Shown here piece by piece: positions 52,031 to 63,573 of a DNA stretch of 64,000 nucleotides. The position numbers and the translations under genes are program-made. This DNA comes from Xanthobacteraceae bacterium (GTDB lineage: Bacteria; Pseudomonadota; Alphaproteobacteria; Rhizobiales; Xanthobacteraceae), in contig JAMLIK010000002.1 of the NCBI GenBank assembly GCA_023954195.1, forward strand, positions 558,001 to 622,000, written 5' to 3'. Position 1 is the stretch's first letter; each line of letters starts with the position of its first letter. The notes under the pieces were generated by a model, which was not told the DNA's origin, made no database searches, and saw nothing but the letters and a program-made list of their open reading frames with translations.

Positions 52031-52795
52031 TTACGAGAACAGCGCCACCTTCTCGGCCTGGCTCAGGCGCGAAATGGCGGCGAGGCGGCCGCCGCCGGAG
52101 CGCAGCGCGCCGCTGGCGATCACCGCGGCGCCGAGCGAGGCAGGCTCGCCCTTGTCGCGGGTGGGCATCGCGTCGGGCGTTTCCGGAGTTGCGGCCGCAT
52201 CGATCGCATCGTCATCGGGGGCCGGCGCGCCCATCTCCATCGCGACCATGTCGAGCAGGGCGAGATCGTGCGCCTCCTCGGCCTCGGTGATGGCGGCCGC
52301 GTCGCCGGATGACGGAGCCTGCGCGCCGCCGCCGGTCGCGAACTGATCGAGGCCGCGGTCGATGGCGTTGGCGTGGGCGTCGAGGGCGTCGCAAAGGCCG
52401 GCCTCCGCGCCGGATCCGCGCAGTGTCCAGGCGATTGCGCGGATGGCGCGCAGACTGCGATAGGCGAGCGCCAGTTGTTCAGCCGCGGGCGGTGCTTGCG
52501 TCGCCGCTCCCGTCTGTTGCCGGGCCTTTGCGGCGACATCTCCGGTCCCGGCCGGCTCGGCGGGCGGATCCGTCTCCGGCCGGCGCGAGCGTTCGATCCG
52601 CGCCACGGCGTCGAGCACCATGCGGATGTCGGCGTTGCGGTTGCGCCGGGCGAACTCGGCGAGAAACCAGCGCCCGCGCGCGGTCGCCGTGAAGGTGTCA
52701 AGGATCGCGTCAAAAGCCCGCTGGTCGGGCGTCGCCGCCTCAGTGGGCGGCGACGGTGTGCCTTGCAACGATGTGCCTTGCGCGTCGTCAGTCAT
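52031..52795 (-). CDS. Conserved hypothetical protein (254 aa)
   Basis: I do not recognise a named family. The best-conserved-looking part is residues 24-66, with FDAILDTFTATARGRWFLAE then FARRNRNADIRMVLDAVARI, a GRxFLxExARRNRxADxxxxLxAIxRIE pattern that I recall from several alphaproteobacterial proteins of unknown role. The rest is Ala/Asp/Pro-rich, low in complexity and helical, without membrane segments. A second patch at the C-terminus reads GGGRLAAISRLSQAEKVALFS. I chose the ATG at 52795 because the upstream extension is Arg-rich and unlike the body. It is convergent with the dehydratase gene. Confidence 0.7.
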   Translation of the reverse strand: MTDDAQGTSLQGTPSPPTEAATPDQRAFDAILDTFTATARGRWFLAEFARRNRNADIRMVLDAVARIERSRRPETDPPAEPAGTGDVAAKARQQTGAATQAPPAAEQLALAYRSLRAIRAIAWTLRGSGAEAGLCDALDAHANAIDRGLDQFATGGGAQAPSSGDAAAITEAEEAHDLALLDMVAMEMGAPAPDDDAIDAAATPETPDAMPTRDKGEPASLGAAVIASGALRSGGGRLAAISRLSQAEKVALFS

Positions 52796-52836
52796 GCGAT
52801 CTCGCTGCACCTGTCGGTCCGTGGGCCATCGCTGTG

Positions 52837-52848
52837 GAAACCGGTTTC
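52837..52848. promoter_or_regulatory. 12 bp palindrome GAAACCGGTTTC, operator-like
   Basis: This perfect palindrome, GAAACCGGTTTC, lies in the divergent gap between the hypothetical gene (start 52795) and the MFS gene (start 52959). Its form is like operators of LacI-family regulators. No such regulator gene is nearby, so this is only suggestive. Confidence 0.3.
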
Positions 52849-52958
52849 GGATCGCACCGGTTCCATGCCAATGTCCCTCCCGTTCCATGCGCCTGGCGCG
52901 ACGGATTCGTCCTCTCCGCAACGATCAACATGATCCGCCGCGAATCGCAATTGCTTTG

Positions 52959-54188
52959 ATGATGCCTGGCCCGGAAATCCCCACGTCGGCGACGCTGGAA
53001 GCGCGGCGGTTCGCGATTGGCCTGCGGCTGTTCTACGCCGCCGCGTTCGGCTTGATGGGCGTGCAACTGCCGTTCTTCCCGGTCTGGCTACAGGGCGTCG
53101 ACGTCGGTCCGGCCTGGATCGGCCTGATCGTCGCGGTGCCGGCGCTGACGCGCTTCACCGTGCTGCCGCTGGTGACCGCGCGGGCGCAGCGCCGGCGCTC
53201 GTTGCGGCCGGCGCTGATCGTCACGGCGCTGCTCACCGCCATCGGCTTTTCGACGCTCGGCCTGTTTCACGCGCCCGCCGCGATCCTGATCGCGTTCGTG
53301 CTGACGGCCTGCGCCTGGACGCCGATGCTGCCGCTGACCGACGCCTACGCGCTGCAAGGCGTCGCCCGCCACGGTCTGCACTACGGGCCGTTGCGGCTGT
53401 GGGGATCCGGGGCCTTCGTGCTCGGCACGCTGGGCGGCGGGTTGCTGGCCGATCGCCTCGACGCGGCGCATCTGATCTGGCCGATGGCGGCGCTGGCGGT
53501 TTTCGGCGCGATGGCCGGCTTGGCGTTGCGGCCGCTGGAGGTCGGCGACCTCGCCGTCGCCACGCGGCGCGGCGGGCCGCCGTTGCTGCGGCAACCGGCG
53601 TTTCTCGCCGTCATCCTCGCGGCGGCGCTGATCCAGGGCAGCCACGCCGCCTATTACGGCTTCGCCTCGATCGCGTGGCGGGCGTCCGGCCTCGACGGCG
53701 CCACCGTCGCCGGGCTGTGGACGCTGGGCGTGCTGGCCGAGATCGTGGCTTTCATGGCGTCGCCGCGCATCGCGATCGCGCCGGCCGGGCTGATCGCGAT
53801 CGGCGGGTCGTGCGCCGTGCTGCGCTGGATGGTGACGGCGCAGGCGCCGTCGCTGCCGGTGCTGGCCGCCGTGCAGGCATTGCACGGCGCGACCTACGGG
53901 GTGACGCTGTTGGGGACCATGGGGCTGTTGGCGCGGATCGCGCCGACACGGATGATGGCCAGCGCGCAAGGCTATCTGGCGGCGGCGTCGGGCATCGTCA
54001 TGAGCTGCGCGTCGGTTCTGGTCGGCATGATGTACGCGCGGCTCGGCGCGGAGGTCTACCACGCGATGGCGGTGATGGCGGCGGCGGGTGTCGGCGTCAT
54101 GTGGCTGGCGCGGCGCGGCCTGCCGCCGTCGAACGGGGCTCAGCCCCACAGCGATGCGTCGGGCGGATCAACGATGCTGCCGTCGTAG
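52959..54188 (+). CDS. MFS transporter (HcaT/YcaD-like)
   Basis: The 409-residue protein has about twelve membrane helices and looks like the MFS_1_like group. It has GLRLFYAAAFGLMGVQLPFFPVWL at the start and PLTDAYALQGVARHGLHYGPLRLWGSGAFV, a typical stretch of the HcaT/nucleoside-type subgroup. The substrate is unknown. Two adjacent ATGs (52959, 52962) could each be the start; there is no strong ribosome-binding site. The 3' end overlaps the convergent epimerase gene by 49 bases. Confidence 0.85.
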   Translation: MMPGPEIPTSATLEARRFAIGLRLFYAAAFGLMGVQLPFFPVWLQGVDVGPAWIGLIVAVPALTRFTVLPLVTARAQRRRSLRPALIVTALLTAIGFSTLGLFHAPAAILIAFVLTACAWTPMLPLTDAYALQGVARHGLHYGPLRLWGSGAFVLGTLGGGLLADRLDAAHLIWPMAALAVFGAMAGLALRPLEVGDLAVATRRGGPPLLRQPAFLAVILAAALIQGSHAAYYGFASIAWRASGLDGATVAGLWTLGVLAEIVAFMASPRIAIAPAGLIAIGGSCAVLRWMVTAQAPSLPVLAAVQALHGATYGVTLLGTMGLLARIAPTRMMASAQGYLAAASGIVMSCASVLVGMMYARLGAEVYHAMAVMAAAGVGVMWLARRGLPPSNGAQPHSDASGGSTMLPS

Positions 54189-55144
54189 CGCAACCCGTGA
54201 TCGCGGTCGGCGGCCAGCAGCAGCGGCCCGTCGAGATCGACATGGCGGGCGCGTGGCGTCAGCAGCATCGCCGGCGCCATCGCCAGCGATGTCGCCACCA
54301 TGCAGCCGACCATCACCTGCAATCCCATCCCCTCGGCCGCGTCCGCCATCGCCAGCGCCTCGGTCAGCCCGCCGGTCTTGTCGAGCTTGATGTTGACGGC
54401 GTCGTAGCGGCCGGAGAGGCCGGCGAGCGAGGCGCGATCGTGGACGCTTTCGTCGGCGCAGACCGGAATCGGCCGATCGATCGTCGCCAGCGCGGCGTCG
54501 CGGCCGGCGGGGAGCGGCTGCTCCACCAGCGTCACGCCGGCGTTGGCGCAGGCCGCGAGATTCGCGGCCAGATTATCGGCGCGCCAGCCCTCGTTGGCAT
54601 CGACGATCAGTTGGGCGTCTGGCGCGGCGCGGCGCACCGCCGCGATCCGCGACGCGTCGTCGTCGGTGCCGAGCTTGATCTTCAACAGCGGCCGGTGCGC
54701 GGCCCGGCCGGCGGCGTCCGCCATCGCCTCGGGCGAGCCCAGCGAGAGGGTGTAGGCGGTGGCGCGCGGTTGCGGCGGCGGCAGGCCGAGCAAGTCCCAC
54801 GCGCGCTTGCCCGCGGTTTTGGCTTCGAGGTCGATGAGGGCGCAGTCGAGCGCGTTGCGCGCCGCGCCGGCGGGCAGCAAGGCTTGCAGCGCCGCGCGGT
54901 CGAGGCCCGCCGCGAGGCGCGCCTGAAGCGACAGGATTTGCTTCAGCGCCGTCTCCGGAGTCTCGCCGTAGCGGGCGTAGGGCACGCATTCGCCGCGCCC
55001 GACATGATCGCCCGCGCGAATTTCGGCGACCACCACCACGGCCTCGGTCTTGCTGCCACGGCTGATGGTGAAGGATCCGGCGATCGGCCAGCGTTCGATC
55101 CGGGCTTCAAGGACGGGCGTCTGGTTCGGGATCATCTCGGACAC
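54140..55144 (-). CDS. Dipeptide epimerase (enolase superfamily, L-Ala-D/L-Glu epimerase-like)
   Basis: The 334-residue enzyme has the muconate-lactonizing/AEE subgroup signature: the catalytic KIKLG (Lys about 155-160), metal ligands in DANEGW, EQP and CADES, and the second catalytic Lys in NIKLDKTGG. AEE-type enzymes epimerise dipeptides such as L-Ala-D-Glu released from murein, which would fit the envelope genes nearby, though other dipeptides are possible. It overlaps the end of the MFS gene tail-to-tail. Confidence 0.88.
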   Translation of the reverse strand: MSEMIPNQTPVLEARIERWPIAGSFTISRGSKTEAVVVVAEIRAGDHVGRGECVPYARYGETPETALKQILSLQARLAAGLDRAALQALLPAGAARNALDCALIDLEAKTAGKRAWDLLGLPPPQPRATAYTLSLGSPEAMADAAGRAAHRPLLKIKLGTDDDASRIAAVRRAAPDAQLIVDANEGWRADNLAANLAACANAGVTLVEQPLPAGRDAALATIDRPIPVCADESVHDRASLAGLSGRYDAVNIKLDKTGGLTEALAMADAAEGMGLQVMVGCMVATSLAMAPAMLLTPRARHVDLDGPLLLAADRDHGLRYDGSIVDPPDASLWG

Positions 55145-55226: not shown

Positions 55227-55345
55227 CGTCGTCCTCGCGCAGGCGAGGACCCATAACCCCTGGCGTCGGTGATTTTGAACGATTCCGCCCGTTGATCGAG
55301 CCGAAGCGCTGCGGCGTATGGGTCCCCGCCTGCGCGGGGACGACG
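55227..55345. repeat. Palindromic repeat family C
   Basis: A complete copy: GTCGTCCTCGCGCAGGCGAG at the left and CCCGCCTGCGCGGGGACGACG at the right. The ends mismatch at two places (CTCG against CCCG), unlike the copies at 34028 and 48366. Confidence 0.9.
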
Positions 55346-55392
55346 TTTTTCGTGTTGAAAAGCCGTGCATGGAACGGCTTTCGGTCAAATGC

Positions 55393-58300
55393 TCAGTTCA
55401 GCCGGCCGGCGGCGTGCGCCAGCAGGGTGTAGACCAGCCCGGTCTCCGAGGTCAGGTGGCTGCGCAGCAGCGCCGGGCCGCGCTCGTCACGCGCGACCTC
55501 GTCCAGGAGCCGCTCGAACTCGACGATGTAGCGGTCCACCGTTTGCTTGAAGTTGCGGTCCGCGCGATATTTTCGCGCCACCTCGTCGAAGGTCTTCTGG
55601 CCCGCCGGCGCGTACAGCCGCTTGGAGAACGCCTTGTTCTCGCCGCGCTGGTAGCGGTCCCACATCTCGGCGGCGAGGTCGCGATCGACCAGGCGGCCGA
55701 TATCGAGCGTCAGCGTCTCCAGCGGATCGCTCGCGGCGGCCGGCTGCGAAGCCCGCGTCCGCGCGCTCTCGCGCTCCTCGGCGACGGAATCGTCGGCACG
55801 GCTGAGCAGGTCCGACAGCCAGGCGTCGCGGTCCTCGGCGGGCTCGCCGATATTCGGGCTGACCGGGGGCGCCTCGGTTCGCTGCGGCGCCGACAGTCCG
55901 AGATCCGGCGGCGGCAAGGTCGATGCGCTGCCGTTGCCGCTGTCGCGGCCGCGGGGCGCGGCGCGAACCGGGGCCTCAGCGTGACCGACGCCGGCGGCGG
56001 CCATCTGCGGTTCCTCGCGTCGGCGCGGCGCGGCGGCGCGGGGCGCCTCGACCACGTCGACCCCGCGTCCGTGGCGCGCGACGATCCGGTTCAGTTCGGC
56101 CAGCGCCTCGATCTGGTCGACGATCACCTTGCGCATCTGCGCGGTGTTTTCGGCGGCCTCCTGCGGCAGTTCGAACACGCCGCGCCGCAGTTCCTCGCGG
56201 GTCATCTCCAGTTCCTGGTGCATCTCCGCGGCCATCTGCTTCATGCCCTGCACCATCGAGGTGAACTTGTCGGCGGATTGCCGGAAGATCGTCTCGGTTT
56301 CCCGCGTGCTCTGCTGGTAGAGCGCGTGCAGCGTCTCGGCGGTGGCCGCGCGCTGCTCCTCGGCGGCGTTGCGCACCGCCTCGAACTGCCGGGTGATCGC
56401 GGTCGAGCCGCTGCCCGCGGTCTCCGCCACCACGCGGGCGATGTCGCGGGCGCGCTCCTCGGCGGCGGCCAGCGAATCGTCGAGCAGCGCGGTGAAGCGC
56501 GTCAGCCGCTGGTCGAGATCGAGGGTGCGCGCGTCGATGGTGCTCACCAGATCGGCGAGCGCCGCCTTGCGCTCCACGATCGAATGGTCGGTGTTGCGAT
56601 TGCTCTGCTCCATCGCCGCCGCCGCCGCGACCAGCGCGCGGCCATGCTCATCGAACTGGCTCGACAGCCCGGACAAGCCCTCGATGGCCTTCGAGGTCTT
56701 GGCGTGGAACATCGTCAACTGATCTTCCAGGCTCTGCGTGGCGTTGCCGCTGCGGGTGGAGACGTCGGTGATCGCCGACACGAATTCGGCGACGCGGGTG
56801 ACCATCGCGCGTTCGAGCGAATTGAGGTTGTCGTGCGCCCCGGTCAGCACCTCTTGCAGCAGGATGTTGCCTTCGCGCAGCCGCTCGAACAGCGCCACCG
56901 TGTCGGTGCGCAGCACCTTGCTGGTCTCCTGCATTTCGGTGACGGCCGCCATCGACACCTGACGCGACTGCTCGATGCTGGCGCGGGAGGTCTGTTCGAG
57001 GTCCTTCAGCGACTTGTTGACCGCGCCGGTGGCGAGTTCGCCGGCCGCCGTGATGGCGCGCGCCACCGTCGAGCCGTTGGTGGCGATCGACTGCGAGAAG
57101 TTCATGCCGCGGCTTTCGATCGCCTTCAGCGCCTCCGAGGTGACGCGTTCGATATCGACGATCAGCTGGTTGCTCTTACCGCCGATGGTTTCGACCAGCG
57201 AGCCGCGCTTGTCGTCGAGCGTCTGCGCCAGCCGGTCGGTCTGCTGCGCCATGTAGCCGACGATTTCATCGGCCTTGCCGCCGAGCACCGTCTCGAACCT
57301 GTCGCTGGCGCCGAGCACCGACTGTTCGATCTCCGCGGCGGTCGTCTTGGCCTTCTGGCCGGCCTCCCCCGCGGCGGCGATGAGCTTGTCGTGGACGGCG
57401 AGGGTGCCGCTGCGGATGGTCTCGACCGAGCTGGCGGCGGTCGCGGTGAGCGACTGCTCGATGCTCTCGCCGAGCGCGCGGATCTGGCTCGCGGCGTCGG
57501 AGGTGGTCGCGACCAGCGAGCCCGACAGCGCCTTCATCTGTTCGGTGGTCTCGGTGCTGGCGCCGGTCAGCGCCTCCTGCGCTTCCCGCGCGCTGCGCCG
57601 GATCTGCGCGGCGGTGTCGGAGCCGACGCTGGACAGCGTCCGCTCGACATCGGCGGACAGCGACCTGACCTGCTCCGCCGCGTTGCTGGAGGCGGCCATC
57701 AGCGTCGCCTGCGCCTCCTGCGCCCCGGTGAGCACGGCGCCGACGGCGGCGTTGCCGACCGTCGACAGGTTCTGTTCGAGATCGGCCGACAGCGCCTTGA
57801 CCTGACCCGAAACCTGATCGGTGAGGGCGATCAGCGTCATCTGCGCCGCGCGGGCGCTGGTCGACACGGCGTCGGCGGCGTTGCCGCCGGCCTGCTTCAG
57901 GGTGCGCTCCATCTCGTCGGAGGCGGCCGAAAGCGTCGCCTGGGCGTCGCGGGTGCCGCTGAGCAGGGCGGCGGTGGTCGAGGCGCCGGTGCCGGACAAG
58001 GTCTGTTCGATGGTCGCGGACAGCGATTGCATCTGCGCCGCCAACTCGCCCGACGTGCCGGTGAGAACGCTCTGGGCCTCGCGCGCGCTGGTCAGCAGCG
58101 TGCTGGCGGTGGCGCCGCCGGCCGAGGTCAGGATGCGCTCGACGTCGGCGGTGAGCGACTGCATCTGCGCCGTCAACTCGCCCGAGGTGCTGGTGAGGAC
58201 GCTCTGGGCCTCGCGGGCGCTGGTCAACAGCGCGCTGGCGGTGGCGCCGCCGGCCGAAGTCAGGGTGCGCTCGACGTCGGCGGTGAGCGACTTGATCTGG

Positions 58301-61300
58301 TCGGTCGCATCGCCGGAAACCGACAGCAGCATGGCGCGCGCCTCGGTGGCGCTGCCGAGGATGGCGGTCGCCGCGGTGGTCCCGACATTGCCGACCGTCT
58401 GCTCGACCTCGGTGGACGCCTGCCGGATCTGGGTGGTGATGTCGGCCGAGACCGCCAGCAGCGACTGCTGCGTGCTCCGCGCGCTGCTCTGAATGGTCTC
58501 GCTGGTGGAGAGCATCAGGCCGGTGAGCGACTGCTCGGCATCGTCGACATGCGACTTGATGCTCGACGACAGTTCCTCGGCGCGCGCCACCAGCGTGTCG
58601 CTGGCCTGGCGGCCGCTGGTCTCGATGCGGCCGGCCACCGCCTCGACGCGGGAGCCGAGCAGATCCTCGAACTGCGCGATGCGGGTGTCGATGTCGCTGG
58701 CGACCGCGTCGGCGCGGCTTTCCAGGCTCTGGTGGATGGTCTGGAAGCGCGCCGTGATGGTGTCGGCGAGATGCGCGGTCCGGCCGTCGATGGTCTGCGT
58801 GACGTTGGTGACGCGCTGGTCGATCGCCGCCAGCGCCTGCGTGGTGCCGTCGTTCAGGGTCGAGGACAGCCGGGCGAGGCGGGAATCGATGGAATGGATC
58901 GCCTCGGTCGCGCCTTCGGTCAGCGACGAGGTGAGCCGCGACAGCCGGGTGTCGATTTCGCCCAGCGTGTGCGTCGCGCCTTCGGTCAACGTCGAGGTGA
59001 GGTGCGAAAGCCGGCCGTCGATCTCGTCGAGCGTCTGCGTCGCGCCCTCGGTCAGCGACGAGGTGAGCCGCGACAGCCGGGTGTCGATTTCGCCCAGCGT
59101 GTGCGTCGCGCCCTCGGTCAGCGACAAGGTCAGTCGCGACAGCCTGCTGTCGATCTTGCCCAGCGTCTGCGTCGCGCCTTCGGTCAGCGATGCGGTGAGC
59201 TGTGTCAGCCGGCCGTCGATTTCGCCGAGCGTCTGCGTCGCGCCTTCGGTCAGCGATGTGGTGAGCTGTGTCAGCCGGCCGTCGATTTCGCTCAGCGTCT
59301 GGGTCGCGCCGTCGGTCAGCGACACGGTGATCTGCGACAGCCTGCTGTCGATTTCGCCGAGCGCCTGCGTCGCGCCCTCGGTCAGCGACGAGGTCAGGTG
59401 CGACAGCCGGCTGTCGATCCTGCCCAGCGTCTGGTTGGCGCCCTGCGTCAGCGACACGGTGAGTTGCGTCAGCCGACCGTCGATTTCGCCCAGCGTCCGT
59501 GTCGCGCCCTCGGTCAGCGACGACGTCAGCTCCGTCAACCGGCTGTCGATCTTGCCCAGAGTCTGGTCCGCATCTCCGGTGAGCGAGGAGGTGAGGTGCG
59601 TCAGCCGGCTGTCGATCTTGTCGAGCGTCTGGTTGGCGCCTTCGGTCAGCGACGCGGTGAGATGCGTCAGCCGGTTGTCGATCCTGCCAAACGTCTGGTC
59701 GGCGCCTTCGGTCAGCGAGGCGGTGAGATGCGACAGCTTGCTGTCGATCTCGCCCAGCGTCTGGGTCGCGCCGTCGTTCAGCGTCGTGGTGAGGTGCGTG
59801 AGCTTGGCCTCGATGCTGTCGATCGCGGTCTGGGTGCCGCCCGAAAGCGAGGCGGACAGCGCGCCGAGCCGCGAATCGACGGTCTCGGTCACGAATCTGG
59901 CGCGGGTGTCGAAGTTCTGTTCGAGCGTCCGCAGCCGGCTGTCCACGCTTTCGTCGAACGACTTGATCTTGGCGTTAAGGGCGCCGTCGAGATCGCCGAC
60001 GCGGGTGCCGAGCTGCACTTCGAATTGTTGCAGGCGCTGGTCGAGCGTCGCGGTGATCTGGCCGCTGTTGGAGGTGAAACGGGTGTCGAAGGTGTCGACG
60101 TAGGTCTTCAGGCTTTCGGCGATTTCGCCGGTGCGCTGGCCCAGACGCTCGACCACTTCGCCGCCATAGGTCTTCACGGTGCGGTCGAATTCGGAGATGT
60201 GCCGGGTAATCAGGGCGCCCAGCGTCGAGCTGTCGCGCGCGAACTTCTCGGCCAGTTCGGTGCCCTGCTGCCGGATCAATTCATCGAACGTGCTCATCTG
60301 GAGGCTGAGCGTGTCGTGCGCGGTTTCGGTCTGGCTCACCATCCGGGTCACCAGCGTGTGGACGGTGGCGTCGAGCGCGTCGCTGGCCCGGTCGCCGCTG
60401 GTCAGGACGCGATCCGCCAGCCGCCGGCCGGCTTCGTCGATCTTGCCGGCGATGTCGCCGCCGCGCAGTTCGAGTTCGAGCAGAAGCGAGTCGCCGGAAT
60501 TGCGCAGCGAGTCGTGAAGCGCCTCGGTGCGGTCGGAAATGCTGTCGACGATCGAGGCGGACTTCTGCTCGAACTCCGAGGTGATGCGGTCGAGCCGGTC
60601 GTTCAGCATGTCGTGGACGCGGTTGGCCAGATCGACGAATTCGTCATGGACGTGGCCGGTCTTGAAGTTCAGGCTGGCGGTCAGCCGCTCGCTGGCGTCG
60701 AGCACGGCGCGGGTGGTTTCGCCGCTGGCTTCCTCAAGGCGGTCGAGCAGGTCGCCGCCGCGCTCGCCGAGCGCAAGGATCATGTTGTCGCCGGCGCTGC
60801 CGAGCGCGCGCGTGATGTGCTCGCCGCGTTCTTCCAGCGCGCCGGTGATGTTCTTGGCGACCTCGTCGACGCGCGCCGCGATGGCGTCGCTAATCAGGGC
60901 GATGTCGTGGCGCAGGTCGATCTGAACGCCGGAAATGGCGCTGCGCACCTGCTCGGCCTGGCCGACCAGATTGTCGCGCTGGTGGGCGATGTCCTGCAAC
61001 AGCGCGCGGATCCGCACCTCGTTGTCGGAATAGGCGCGCTCCAGCGCCGAGACCTCGTTGGCGACCAGCGTTTCGAGTTCGCCGGCGCGCGCGATGGCGC
61101 GCTCCATGCCGTCGCCCATGGCGGCGACCTCGCGGCGGATCGCCTGGCCGACCGTCACCATGGAATCGCTGGCGGCGTGCTCGGGTTCGGAGAACCGCAT
61201 CGCCACCTGCGCCATCGACTGCGCGATCATCCGCAGTTCCTGGCCGCGCCAGGCGAGGCTGGCGAGGAAGTAGAACAGCAGGATCGGGGCCAGCAGCACC

Positions 61301-61722
61301 GAGGTCAGGCCGACGAAGGCCAGCGCGCCGCCGTTCTGGCCCAGCGATTGCAACGACGGATAGAAGGCGAACGCCAACAGGCCCGCGCCGATCAGCCAGA
61401 CCACGGTGAAAATGGTGGCGAGCGTGTAGATGTTGCGCGCCGGGCGGCCCTTCTGGATCGCTTGCAGGATCTGGCCGATGGTCTCGCGGTCGTCGTTGGC
61501 GGCGTCGCGATTGAACCGGGGCTCGTCGGACATCTCGTCCGGGAACGGCCGCGGGCTGAACGTCGCCTCGTCGCGCGGCGGTTCGGGGATGTTGACGGAA
61601 GGCGCGGCGGGCTGTGCGGTGGCGCTGTCCGGAGCCGGCGTCTCGCTGATGTTCAGGGCTTCCTGAATCGCGGAAAGCGCGACCTCGGTGGGGTCCTGAG
61701 TCTTCTTGGGACTGTTCGCCAT
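55393..61722 (-). CDS. Giant membrane-anchored coiled-coil protein (2109 aa), TipN-like
   Basis: The N-terminal 95 residues are polar. Two membrane helices follow (about 98-120 and 132-155), then roughly 1800 residues of predicted helix made of Ala/Ser/Thr/Gln/Glu with an 11-residue period. Residues about 584-1070 are 22-residue units, fifteen of them highly alike at 650-979 (type EGATQTLGEIDGRLTQLTAS plus LT). Residues about 1101-1450 are 44-residue units. The C-terminal 115 residues form a distinct domain (ENKAFSKRLYAPAGQKTFDE; DRYIVEFERLLDEVARDERG; LLAHAAGRLN). From memory the layout and C-terminal domain resemble TipN, the alphaproteobacterial pole-marking protein, though this is over twice as long. 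Databases often label relatives apolipoprotein-like because of the 22-mers. A CtrA-like site lies upstream. Confidence 0.85.
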   Translation of the reverse strand: MANSPKKTQDPTEVALSAIQEALNISETPAPDSATAQPAAPSVNIPEPPRDEATFSPRPFPDEMSDEPRFNRDAANDDRETIGQILQAIQKGRPARNIYTLATIFTVVWLIGAGLLAFAFYPSLQSLGQNGGALAFVGLTSVLLAPILLFYFLASLAWRGQELRMIAQSMAQVAMRFSEPEHAASDSMVTVGQAIRREVAAMGDGMERAIARAGELETLVANEVSALERAYSDNEVRIRALLQDIAHQRDNLVGQAEQVRSAISGVQIDLRHDIALISDAIAARVDEVAKNITGALEERGEHITRALGSAGDNMILALGERGGDLLDRLEEASGETTRAVLDASERLTASLNFKTGHVHDEFVDLANRVHDMLNDRLDRITSEFEQKSASIVDSISDRTEALHDSLRNSGDSLLLELELRGGDIAGKIDEAGRRLADRVLTSGDRASDALDATVHTLVTRMVSQTETAHDTLSLQMSTFDELIRQQGTELAEKFARDSSTLGALITRHISEFDRTVKTYGGEVVERLGQRTGEIAESLKTYVDTFDTRFTSNSGQITATLDQRLQQFEVQLGTRVGDLDGALNAKIKSFDESVDSRLRTLEQNFDTRARFVTETVDSRLGALSASLSGGTQTAIDSIEAKLTHLTTTLNDGATQTLGEIDSKLSHLTASLTEGADQTFGRIDNRLTHLTASLTEGANQTLDKIDSRLTHLTSSLTGDADQTLGKIDSRLTELTSSLTEGATRTLGEIDGRLTQLTVSLTQGANQTLGRIDSRLSHLTSSLTEGATQALGEIDSRLSQITVSLTDGATQTLSEIDGRLTQLTTSLTEGATQTLGEIDGRLTQLTASLTEGATQTLGKIDSRLSRLTLSLTEGATHTLGEIDTRLSRLTSSLTEGATQTLDEIDGRLSHLTSTLTEGATHTLGEIDTRLSRLTSSLTEGATEAIHSIDSRLARLSSTLNDGTTQALAAIDQRVTNVTQTIDGRTAHLADTITARFQTIHQSLESRADAVASDIDTRIAQFEDLLGSRVEAVAGRIETSGRQASDTLVARAEELSSSIKSHVDDAEQSLTGLMLSTSETIQSSARSTQQSLLAVSADITTQIRQASTEVEQTVGNVGTTAATAILGSATEARAMLLSVSGDATDQIKSLTADVERTLTSAGGATASALLTSAREAQSVLTSTSGELTAQMQSLTADVERILTSAGGATASTLLTSAREAQSVLTGTSGELAAQMQSLSATIEQTLSGTGASTTAALLSGTRDAQATLSAASDEMERTLKQAGGNAADAVSTSARAAQMTLIALTDQVSGQVKALSADLEQNLSTVGNAAVGAVLTGAQEAQATLMAASSNAAEQVRSLSADVERTLSSVGSDTAAQIRRSAREAQEALTGASTETTEQMKALSGSLVATTSDAASQIRALGESIEQSLTATAASSVETIRSGTLAVHDKLIAAAGEAGQKAKTTAAEIEQSVLGASDRFETVLGGKADEIVGYMAQQTDRLAQTLDDKRGSLVETIGGKSNQLIVDIERVTSEALKAIESRGMNFSQSIATNGSTVARAITAAGELATGAVNKSLKDLEQTSRASIEQSRQVSMAAVTEMQETSKVLRTDTVALFERLREGNILLQEVLTGAHDNLNSLERAMVTRVAEFVSAITDVSTRSGNATQSLEDQLTMFHAKTSKAIEGLSGLSSQFDEHGRALVAAAAAMEQSNRNTDHSIVERKAALADLVSTIDARTLDLDQRLTRFTALLDDSLAAAEERARDIARVVAETAGSGSTAITRQFEAVRNAAEEQRAATAETLHALYQQSTRETETIFRQSADKFTSMVQGMKQMAAEMHQELEMTREELRRGVFELPQEAAENTAQMRKVIVDQIEALAELNRIVARHGRGVDVVEAPRAAAPRRREEPQMAAAGVGHAEAPVRAAPRGRDSGNGSASTLPPPDLGLSAPQRTEAPPVSPNIGEPAEDRDAWLSDLLSRADDSVAEERESARTRASQPAAASDPLETLTLDIGRLVDRDLAAEMWDRYQRGENKAFSKRLYAPAGQKTFDEVARKYRADRNFKQTVDRYIVEFERLLDEVARDERGPALLRSHLTSETGLVYTLLAHAAGRLN
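58027..58290 (-). repeat. Two near-identical 132 bp coding repeats (44 residues each)
   Basis: Within the giant gene, residues 1145-1188 and 1189-1232 differ at only about four of 44 positions. Each starts SLTADVER and contains TSAREAQSVL and QMQ. Flanking units of the same 44-residue type are more diverged. Confidence 0.9.
58786..59775 (-). repeat. Array of fifteen 66 bp coding repeats (22 residues each)
   Basis: Residues 650-979 of the giant protein are fifteen consecutive 22-residue units with consensus EGATQTLGEID-GRLTQLTASLT, i.e. two 11-residue halves. At least two more diverged units precede and four follow in the same register. Confidence 0.93.
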
Positions 61723-62145
61723 GGTACTCTACGCCCTTGTTTACCCAGCCGGAAGTTTCGCCGCCGGGCCGACCGGAAGGCCCTCTTGGCCCTCGACGAT
61801 CGGCGGCGGCCGGAGCAAACGCCCGCGCCGCACGGTTGTGCGCGACTTCCCCCAACATCCTATTGGCTTGCAGGCGCGAATGAAATGGATGTGATTAATA
61901 CAATTTTAACGATCCTTAATCATCGTTAACGCGGAACCGGGCAAAAGCGCGCGGCGATGGAAAATCGCCCCGAACCGGCGCGGTCGCCGCTGAAATCGGC
62001 CTGATCGCCGGTTTTATCCGGTGTTCCGGCCCGCGCGGATCGTTAACCAAGTTGCTCGGTTGGCGTCGAACGGGTTCGCATTTTCGCGACGCGGCCGGAT
62101 CTGGCCATCGGGCCTGGCCGCCGCGTGAAAGGACCGAGGGGATCG
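61723..62145. other. Divergent intergenic region between the giant coiled-coil and Hpt genes
   Basis: These 423 bases should contain promoters for both divergent genes. They include an AT-rich patch (about 61888-61930) unusual for this GC-rich window, which carries the CtrA-like site, two further TTAA sequences at ten-base spacing, and a TTAACCA half-site at 62043-62049. I see no gene or repeat-family copy. Confidence 0.6.
61895..61910. promoter_or_regulatory. CtrA-box-like site (TTAA-N7-TTAAC)
   Basis: The sequence TTAATACAATTTTAAC exactly fits TTAA-N7-TTAAC, the consensus for the cell-cycle regulator CtrA. More TTAA sequences follow at 61916 and 61926, the last as GTTAACG. It lies about 175 bases upstream of the giant gene start and about 235 bases from the Hpt gene start. 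It matches the consensus but binding is not shown. Confidence 0.5.
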
Positions 62146-62487
62146 ATGCCGCCGTATTCCGCCGCCGCCGGGCCGCCGATCGATCTCGACCATCTCCGCG
62201 CGGTGACGCTGGGCGATCCGGCGCTGGAGCGCGAGGTGCTGCTTTTGTTCCTGGAGCAGACGGCCGCCCTGATGCGGAGGCTGGCGTCGCTGCCGGCGGA
62301 CGCCGCCGCGCTCGCGCACACCATGAAGGGATCGGCGCGCGCGATCGGGGCGTTCGGCGTGGCGGACGCGGCGACGGCGCTGGAGGCGGCGCTGGGCGAC
62401 GAGGCGGGGGCGCGCGCGGCTGTGCGGCGGCTCGACGCCGAGGCCGGACGGGCGCGGCGGGCGGCGACCGCGCGGCTTCGCCGGTAG
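62146..62487 (+). CDS. Hpt (histidine phosphotransfer) domain protein
   Basis: The 113-residue protein is a single Hpt helical bundle with the phospho-accepting His about residue 58 in LAHTMKGSARAIGAFGVADA, the expected H-x2-KGSA pattern. It would relay phosphate between a hybrid kinase and a response regulator. In this class of bacteria the relay to CtrA uses the structurally different ChpT, so the partner here is unknown. I chose the ATG at 62146 because GAGGGG precedes it at a good distance; a GTG at 62125 is possible. A 16 bp palindrome GCCGCGCCGGCGCGGC starts at the stop codon. Confidence 0.85.
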   Translation: MPPYSAAAGPPIDLDHLRAVTLGDPALEREVLLLFLEQTAALMRRLASLPADAAALAHTMKGSARAIGAFGVADAATALEAALGDEAGARAAVRRLDAEAGRARRAATARLRR

Positions 62488-62599
62488 CCGCGCCGGCGCG
62501 GCCGAAAATCGGCGGCGGACCGGCGTGGCGGCTGGCGCGGGGCGGAGCGAGCCGCTATAGGTCAGCGAGCATTCCTCTTTCCAGACAGCACGAGCAGCC

Positions 62600-62920
62600 A
62601 TGGCGAAGATTCACTATGTTGACCACACCGGCGAGACCCGCACCGTCGACGTCGAAAACGGCGCGACGGTGATGGAGGGCGCGATCCGCAACGCCATCCC
62701 CGGCATCGAGGCCGAGTGCGGCGGCGCCTGCGCCTGCGCGACCTGCCATGTCTATGTCGACGAAGCCTGGCGTGAGAAGGTCGGCGGTCCGACGCCGATG
62801 GAGGAGGACATGCTGGACTTCGGCTACGACGTGCGCCCGAATTCGCGGCTGTCGTGCCAGATCAAGGTCACCGACGAACTCGACGGGCTGATCGTCAGCA
62901 CACCGGAGCGGCAGGCTTAG
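62600..62920 (+). CDS. [2Fe-2S] ferredoxin, adrenodoxin type
   Basis: The 106-residue protein has the cluster ligands C-x5-C-x2-C-x36-C at residues 40, 46, 49 and 86 ([34 protein letters not shown]), with an extra Cys 44. This is the adrenodoxin/putidaredoxin/FdxB class, which supplies electrons to P450s or to iron-sulfur assembly. There is no hsc or isc gene nearby. An FNR-type reductase gene lies about 0.8 kb downstream and could be its partner. Confidence 0.93.
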
Positions 62921-63093: not shown

Positions 63094-63573
63094 TTAAGCC
63101 CCGGCGGCATCGCCGCGCAGCTTCCAGCGCTGGAATCCCTCGATGGTCGCGGGCGGCAGCGGCGTCGGCTTGCGGGTGCGGGCGTCGACCAGCACCGTGG
63201 TCGCCTGCGCCGAGGCGATGCACCGGCCCTGCGAGAACACCACCTGATCGAACGTCACCGAGGTTCGGCCCAGCCGCAGCACGCCGAGCCCGGTCTCGAT
63301 GGTGCCGGGCCAGTGCAGTTCGGCGCGGTAGTGAACGTCGAGGCGGACCAGCACCCAGCTTGCGCCCGCCGGCGTCAGTCCGTTCGCCGCGTCGCGCACC
63401 AGGATCACCCGGCCGGTCTCGAAGTAGCTGGCATAGACCGCGTTGTTGACATGGCCGTTGACGTCGAGATCGGCGAAGCGGACGTTGTCTTCGAGGCGAA
63501 GCGGGTAGTCGTCGAGACGCGGCGGCGTCGGGGCGGGATCGGTCACGGGCGGGCTTCCATGCGGTTGATCCAT
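63094..63573 (-). CDS. Acyl-CoA thioesterase (4HBT hot-dog fold)
   Basis: The 159-residue protein has the 4-hydroxybenzoyl-CoA thioesterase-type motif RFADLDVNGHVNNAVYASYFETGR (about 33-56) with the catalytic Asp and the HVNN block. It would hydrolyse an acyl-CoA of unknown chain. The ATG at 63573 is the best start. It is flanked by repeat C downstream and divergent from the FNR gene. Confidence 0.88.
   Translation of the reverse strand: MDQPHGSPPVTDPAPTPPRLDDYPLRLEDNVRFADLDVNGHVNNAVYASYFETGRVILVRDAANGLTPAGASWVLVRLDVHYRAELHWPGTIETGLGVLRLGRTSVTFDQVVFSQGRCIASAQATTVLVDARTRKPTPLPPATIEGFQRWKLRGDAAGA

Follow-up and report, generated by a model that had tools for sequence, protein, structure and literature searches.

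A GPR/RgsE-type polar scaffold candidate in a Xanthobacteraceae bacterium and its relation to Caulobacter TipN

GPR, RgsE, and TipN are proteins of the cell pole in Alphaproteobacteria. GPR (Atu1348) from Agrobacterium tumefaciens comprises 2,115 amino acids (aa) and has been described with two N-terminal transmembrane segments (TMs), a helix of ∼1,700 aa, and a proline-rich region before the C-terminus. GPR variants lacking the last 10, 221, or 332 residues fail to restore normal shape. Multiple PF01442 stretches have been reported in GPR, which is treated as apolipoprotein-like and for which a lipid role has been proposed (PMC8262873). RgsE from Sinorhizobium meliloti (SMc00190, 2,089 aa) is 42% identical to GPR, is located at the growing pole, and has homologs in all Rhizobiales families; loss of RgsE/GPR leads to shape phenotypes and overproduction to branching, and TolQ, RgsA, and RgsS are the reported interaction partners of RgsE (PMC7327166). 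TipN from Caulobacter, with a length of 882 aa (PMC13170164), is a marker of the new pole that binds to ParA as an interaction partner and has an effect on the dynamics of MreB (PMC4460556, PMC5182065). The subject here is a 64,000-nucleotide stretch of DNA from a Xanthobacteraceae bacterium (contig JAMLIK010000002.1, positions 558,001 to 622,000), referred to as the window, and in particular one open reading frame (ORF) on its minus strand, 55393..61722, which starts with ATG and encodes 2109 aa followed by a stop. An earlier note, made from the letters alone and naming no strand, had suggested that the product may be an oversized TipN homolog. Such a protein has already been named and studied, as GPR in Agrobacterium and as RgsE in Sinorhizobium, and the whole gene is read here as the GPR/RgsE ortholog of a TipN-GPR family. 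With a probability of about 0.9, as judged from sequence comparison, it encodes the organism's own GPR/RgsE, a putative membrane-anchored polar scaffold.

Architecture and assignment to GPR/RgsE

The two ends of the protein resemble the 2089-aa S. meliloti protein most clearly. When each end is compared alone with the low-complexity filter on, the N-terminal TM/neck end is 40% identical over 264 aa (E 3.5e-52) and the C-terminal end 46% identical over 160 aa (E 5e-40), and the whole protein aligns with 25% identity over 2,247 columns (E 3e-129). In addition to both end similarities, the gene shares with GPR/RgsE the architecture of ∼2,100 aa, the PF01442 stretches (a feature that is partly a compositional match), the single copy, and conservation throughout the order. 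A tblastn search of plasmid records with the C-terminal domain matched five records, four from Sinorhizobium and one from Shinella. Record CP090106.1 is labeled as pSymB of S. meliloti, yet it measures 3.72 Mb, carries the rgsE-like gene, petA, and folP, and looks like a mislabeled chromosome.

The protein begins with a poorly conserved, proline-rich tail (aa 1–93, 61444..61722; 16 prolines in aa 1–150); aa 1–100 alone gave nothing significant against RgsE (best E 0.083). Two membrane helices had been proposed near the N-terminus, and they are recovered by Kyte-Doolittle hydropathy as TM1 (aa 101–119, 61366..61422, mean 2.23) and TM2 (aa 134–152, 61267..61323, mean 2.26). Directly C-terminal of TM2 lies a strongly conserved neck (aa 153–286, 60865..61266) that is common to RgsE and TipN and has the consensus EPE..A.D...TVGQAIRREVAAMGDG.ERA.ARAGELE.LV..EV..LER.YSDNE in alignment A5. 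PF01442 reaches weakly into its second half (E 7e-6). The neck is followed by the rod (aa 287–1800, 56323..60864), which is nearly proline-free, hendecad-periodic, and PF01442-like, by a proline-rich linker (about aa 1801–1980, 55783..56322; 10 prolines in aa 1801–1950), and by a C-terminal helical domain of ∼129 residues (aa 1981–2109, 55396..55782). This last domain is widespread in the class and also present in TipN, and no Pfam or NCBIfam model matches it at E ≤ 1. All of these parts are encoded on the minus strand. On the plus strand, a 2203-aa open frame (55318–61929) covers the whole gene in antisense; it is probably an antisense by-product, with high GC and repeat composition as the likely source.

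A single proline occurs in the 1,650 residues of aa 151–1800 and none in aa 301–1800. Across aa 281–1850, strongly hydrophobic residues recur with a peak at 3.67 residues (11/3, the hendecad spacing) and a power of 74.2; a second peak lies at 11.02 residues (power 12.6), and 20 shuffled sequences gave at most 9.7. The 11-residue periodicity that had been claimed for the rod is thereby borne out. Its length had been put at ∼1800 residues, and here the long helical rod stands while the figure shrinks to nearer 1,500–1,650. Self-identity within the rod amounts to 29% at a lag of 44 residues and 27% at a lag of 22 (8.6% expected). The repeats are also visible in the DNA of the minus strand as a 66-bp (22-aa) tandem array of 13.5 copies (58907..59798) and a 132-bp (44-aa) array of 2.1 copies (58022..58299). 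By its sequence pattern, the rod is thus built from 11-residue units with superimposed 22/44-residue duplications.

The C-terminal domain, which had been described as a separate unit, is conserved. Its single sequence, used as a query, finds 59 of the 61 genomes of the same family and 109 of the 289 of the class. A 29-row profile, A1, built from 29 of 39 C-terminal loci with no row from the Caulobacteraceae-like family f54, has matches in 146 of the order's 149 genomes and in 164 of 389 of the class (own genome included in all four counts). One match is present in the own genome and in each listed genome of the order. Genomes without a match are three in the order (G377, G404, and G456) and several in the Caulobacteraceae-like family (e.g., G703, G716, and G687); the order that holds family f104 is represented by three searched genomes. 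Family f12 was considered as Caulobacteraceae and set aside, since the 49 genomes drawn from it belong to 48 genera, and it probably represents a different family. Within the order, the longest stop-to-stop frame that carries the domain has 2,940 codons, and 96 of the 146 span at least 1,400 codons by hand count; the short ones (down to 64 codons) include frames broken or cut at contig ends. Since about two thirds of the order's frames are at least 1,400 codons long, the size is normal here. The protein is longer than TipN, as the word “oversized” implies, but it is not of unusual size; it is the expected, ordinary member of a studied family for its order. The C-terminal domains of S. meliloti and of family f163, which belongs to the window's order, share 82% identity over 117 aa, a similarity that would put the window in the Rhizobiales.

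Several points weigh against the assignment to GPR/RgsE. The whole-length scores are inflated by the rod. The S. meliloti gene (2089 codons and a stop) was named RgsE by organism, length, and description, and its record says “kinesin”; the link to GPR runs through this protein and the RgsE-GPR identity quoted above. The S. meliloti locus has none of the tested window neighbors. RgsE is dispensable in S. meliloti, though important (PMC7327166). GPR without its C-terminal 332 residues is reported to form paired polar foci all the same, and the C-terminal domain is therefore not the ring-forming part. Location, ring formation, and the polar growth mode would apply to this organism by analogy with its orthologs.

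Seen as a GPR/RgsE ortholog, the protein may work as follows. The membrane pair would anchor it at the new pole, and the long helical rod would take part in a growth-pole ring. Function would require the C-terminal part, whereas paired foci would form without it. The ring would organize envelope and peptidoglycan synthesis at the pole in an organism that apparently has no MreB. Labor may be divided such that the neck and the C-terminal domain provide conserved pole-marking contacts and the rod serves as a length-variable spacer and assembly element.

Homology with TipN

In the Caulobacter vibrioides genome (G729), profile A1 gives one match at E ≤ 0.1, an 882-aa gene at E 1.1e-9. The 882-aa protein of family f54 is identical to a protein of C. 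vibrioides DSM 9893 and is called TipN here by organism, length, and architecture; the annotations do not use this name. Within the family, 60 genomes were searched with A1; 47 have a match at E ≤ 0.1, and for 42 of these it reaches E ≤ 0.001 by hand count. The remaining five matches sit in short frames and are unlikely to represent this gene. In the reverse direction, a TipN-only C-terminal profile finds this gene as its sole match among 548 frames of the window (E 9e-9), and a TipN-only profile trimmed to TM and neck, searched with filters off, matches aa 97–269 (E 4.4e-10; next best 0.51). Homology with TipN, which had been put forward earlier, is thus backed by reciprocal profile matches. 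The comparison of the C-terminal domain with TipN profiles had been chosen beforehand as the place where the idea could fail, and it returned a significant match. The letters LLAHAAGR, which had been given as part of the similarity, are missing from Caulobacter TipN, which ends in ...LLSSDAGRAYLLLDAASGDLA.

Profile–profile comparison with hhalign of the GPR-type and TipN sets yields E 3e-9 for the C-terminal domain and E 3.3e-11 for the N-terminal TM/neck region. The reversed controls gave 0.25 and 0.12, 30 column shuffles each gave 0.05 or worse, and coiled-coil stretches gave 1e-4 to 6e-3. The TipN set consists of 12 of 13 full-length ORFs (L139 was dropped for its wrong frame), alignments A3 and A4 hold 15 of 21 TipN loci, L162, L172, and L173 were dropped from the GPR set for this comparison, and the membrane position of L144 in the trimmed TM-neck profile is a guess. 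The link to TipN is weakened at the N-terminus by three misses: the TipN N-terminal profile, when left untrimmed and run under default filters, has no match in the window, the GPR-side N-terminal profile finds the gene in four of 12 f54 genomes with C. vibrioides not among them, and blastp of window aa 81–330 against TipN returns nothing at E ≤ 1. Because of these misses, the N-terminal evidence for homology is good at the profile level only, and the C-terminal evidence is strong. AlphaFold2 models of the C-terminal domain have a mean pLDDT of 74.7 (window) and 88.4 (TipN) and show a similar helix order, which lends weak support since the models share alignment rows. In a Foldseek search of the PDB, neither C-terminal model had a match at E ≤ 0.001; this does not indicate a new fold. 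With both ends matching TipN, GPR and TipN belong to a single family in which the rod varies in length.

Given this homology, the protein might function mainly as a TipN-like landmark of the new pole that sets the site of the flagellum, the origin segregation driven by ParA, and the polarity of division, with organization of the growth zone being secondary. Homology at both ends and the reported relations of TipN to ParA and MreB speak for such a role, which is nevertheless rather unlikely. The closer relatives RgsE and GPR are growth-pole proteins with shape and branching phenotypes, this genome yielded no MreB, which is one of the targets reported for TipN, and the rods differ: the hydrophobic period is 3.66–3.67 in the three GPR-type proteins tested, the window protein having 3.67, vs about 3.59 in the TipN rod (aa 221–640). 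A growth-pole protein of the GPR/RgsE type remains the preferred reading.

In print, GPR is said in one sentence to have “similarity to” TipN (PMC8546619), and TipN is called “analogous” to GPR in another (PMC13170164). TipN has been termed Caulobacter-specific (PMC4460556), and most alphaproteobacteria are said to lack it (PMC5182065). The word TipN is missing from the main text of a 2021 paper on GPR domains, and a text search of the literature for RgsE together with TipN found nothing. The bridge between TipN and GPR is better documented here than in these passages; the original 2019 GPR paper may state the similarity fully. What is useful is a tested bridge between the Caulobacter pole landmark and the rhizobial growth-ring protein, with both conserved ends in common. 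Should this bridge hold, mutations in either system would best be aimed at the neck and the ∼115-residue C-terminal domain, with rod length and pitch as the variable to test.

The rod, its look-alikes, and MreB

The rod gives rise to two further readings. PF01442 matches the whole protein in nine stretches with 241.8 bits (cut-off 90 bits, E 6e-72), which, together with the lipid role proposed for GPR, would suit a bacterial lipid-binding protein of the apolipoprotein type, with an amphipathic rod that covers membrane or lipid. This is improbable. The antisense frame also matches PF01442 (E 1.4e-4), and a PF01442 search of the genome found no single place above the cut-off; the match therefore probably mirrors the 11/22-residue amphipathic periodicity. 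Moreover, conservation is highest in the neck, with its weak PF01442 stretch only, and in the C-terminal domain. A generic coiled coil of another family, be it a ZorA-like anti-phage stator, SpiroCoCo/LA_3659, or the annotated “kinesin,” is highly improbable: LA_3659_fam scores 44.5 bits over a cut-off of 36 and ZorA_1 reaches E 1e-6 (NCBIfam), but the best stretches (aa 872–1008 and 285–561, respectively) lie in the rod or at its start, ZorA has 27.3 bits vs a cut-off of 190 and SpiroCoCo 44.5 vs 75, no Pfam motor domain is found in the protein at E ≤ 1, none of the seven neighboring ORFs scanned with Pfam/NCBIfam is a ZorB partner, and both conserved ends match GPR/TipN.

The reading as GPR/RgsE also bears on MreB. 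The own genome yielded no full-length MreB; its best PF06723 match (E 1.1e-16, profile positions 77–316) lies in a 664-codon frame that is probably DnaK; full-length MreB matches in other genomes reach E 5e-110 or better. The lack of an MreB-grade match fits growth from the pole. Among 99 Rhizobiales genomes, which were hand-picked from the family and order searches, a stop-to-stop frame of at least 1,500 codons is present in none of the 14 with full-length MreB and in 60 of the 85 without MreB (Mann-Whitney p 5e-6, not corrected for ancestry, with some frames being cut). Outside the order, MreB is present in 60 of 61 genomes, and frames of at least 1,500 codons occur in 18 of the 22 tallied MreB-bearing genomes, mostly from long-frame families. 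These long frames show that, as a general rule, length cannot be put down to the loss of MreB. Rod length as a general substitute for MreB was accordingly rejected, the contrast being strong within the order and absent outside, and enters only into the broader scenario that follows.

A broader scenario is offered tentatively, at odds judged to be well below even. TipN and GPR/RgsE may be one ancient new-pole scaffold that runs through much of the Alphaproteobacteria, as the 164 class genomes with a C-terminal match suggest, rather than a protein peculiar to Caulobacter and a rhizobial apolipoprotein without relation to it. In those Rhizobiales that lost MreB, duplications of 22/44 residues could have extended the rod and shifted its pitch to the hendecad, with the landmark turning into a growth-organizing ring.

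Neighboring genes and comparison with known systems

The gene is flanked on the same strand by an N-acetyl-D-Glu racemase gene, DgcA by profile match, 0.25 kb downstream (54140..55144) and by a YbgC/FadM-like thioesterase gene 1.4 kb upstream (63094..63573) that scores below the NCBIfam cut-offs and over Pfam's. The substrates of DgcA-type enzymes are L-Ala-D-Glu or N-acetyl-D-Glu, near wall-peptide turnover. Six loci were sampled, those of five relatives with about 4–7 kb of flank and that of S. meliloti. Four of the six have a DgcA relative 3–5 kb downstream of the GPR gene, and three have a thioesterase relative 1–2 kb upstream. In a Rhizobiaceae-like genome, the distance between the DgcA relative and the GPR gene is 4.4 kb, a proximity that speaks for the GPR/RgsE reading. 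The loci of S. meliloti (L079) and G298 have neither. In relatives of the same family, the thioesterase upstream and DgcA with an MFS gene downstream (window 52620–55144) are again located only a few kb away from the GPR gene. Between the rod gene and the thioesterase, a 195-aa ORF (62014–62601, minus strand) has no Pfam/NCBIfam match at E ≤ 1 and no tblastn counterpart in the loci of six relatives, and it is probably not a gene.

Three known systems can be set beside the window protein. Apolipoproteins A1/A4/E (PF01442) resemble it in their 11/22-residue amphipathic helical repeats, which score over the gathering cut-off. They differ from it in that the window protein is membrane-anchored, has 2109 aa, and carries its most conserved parts mainly outside the PF01442 stretches.

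TipN shares with the window protein the order of parts, a homologous TM/neck module, and a homologous C-terminal domain (about 27–31% identical). Its rod, in contrast, is much shorter and has the period of 3.59 instead of 3.67, in a protein of near 880 aa, and Caulobacter has MreB, whereas none was found in the genome of the window organism.

RgsE/GPR comes closest. It matches in length, the two N-terminal TMs, the N-terminal region (40%), the PF01442-like rod, the proline-rich linker, and the C-terminal domain (46%). RgsE differs in that the whole alignment is only 25% identical and that the S. meliloti locus has other neighbors.

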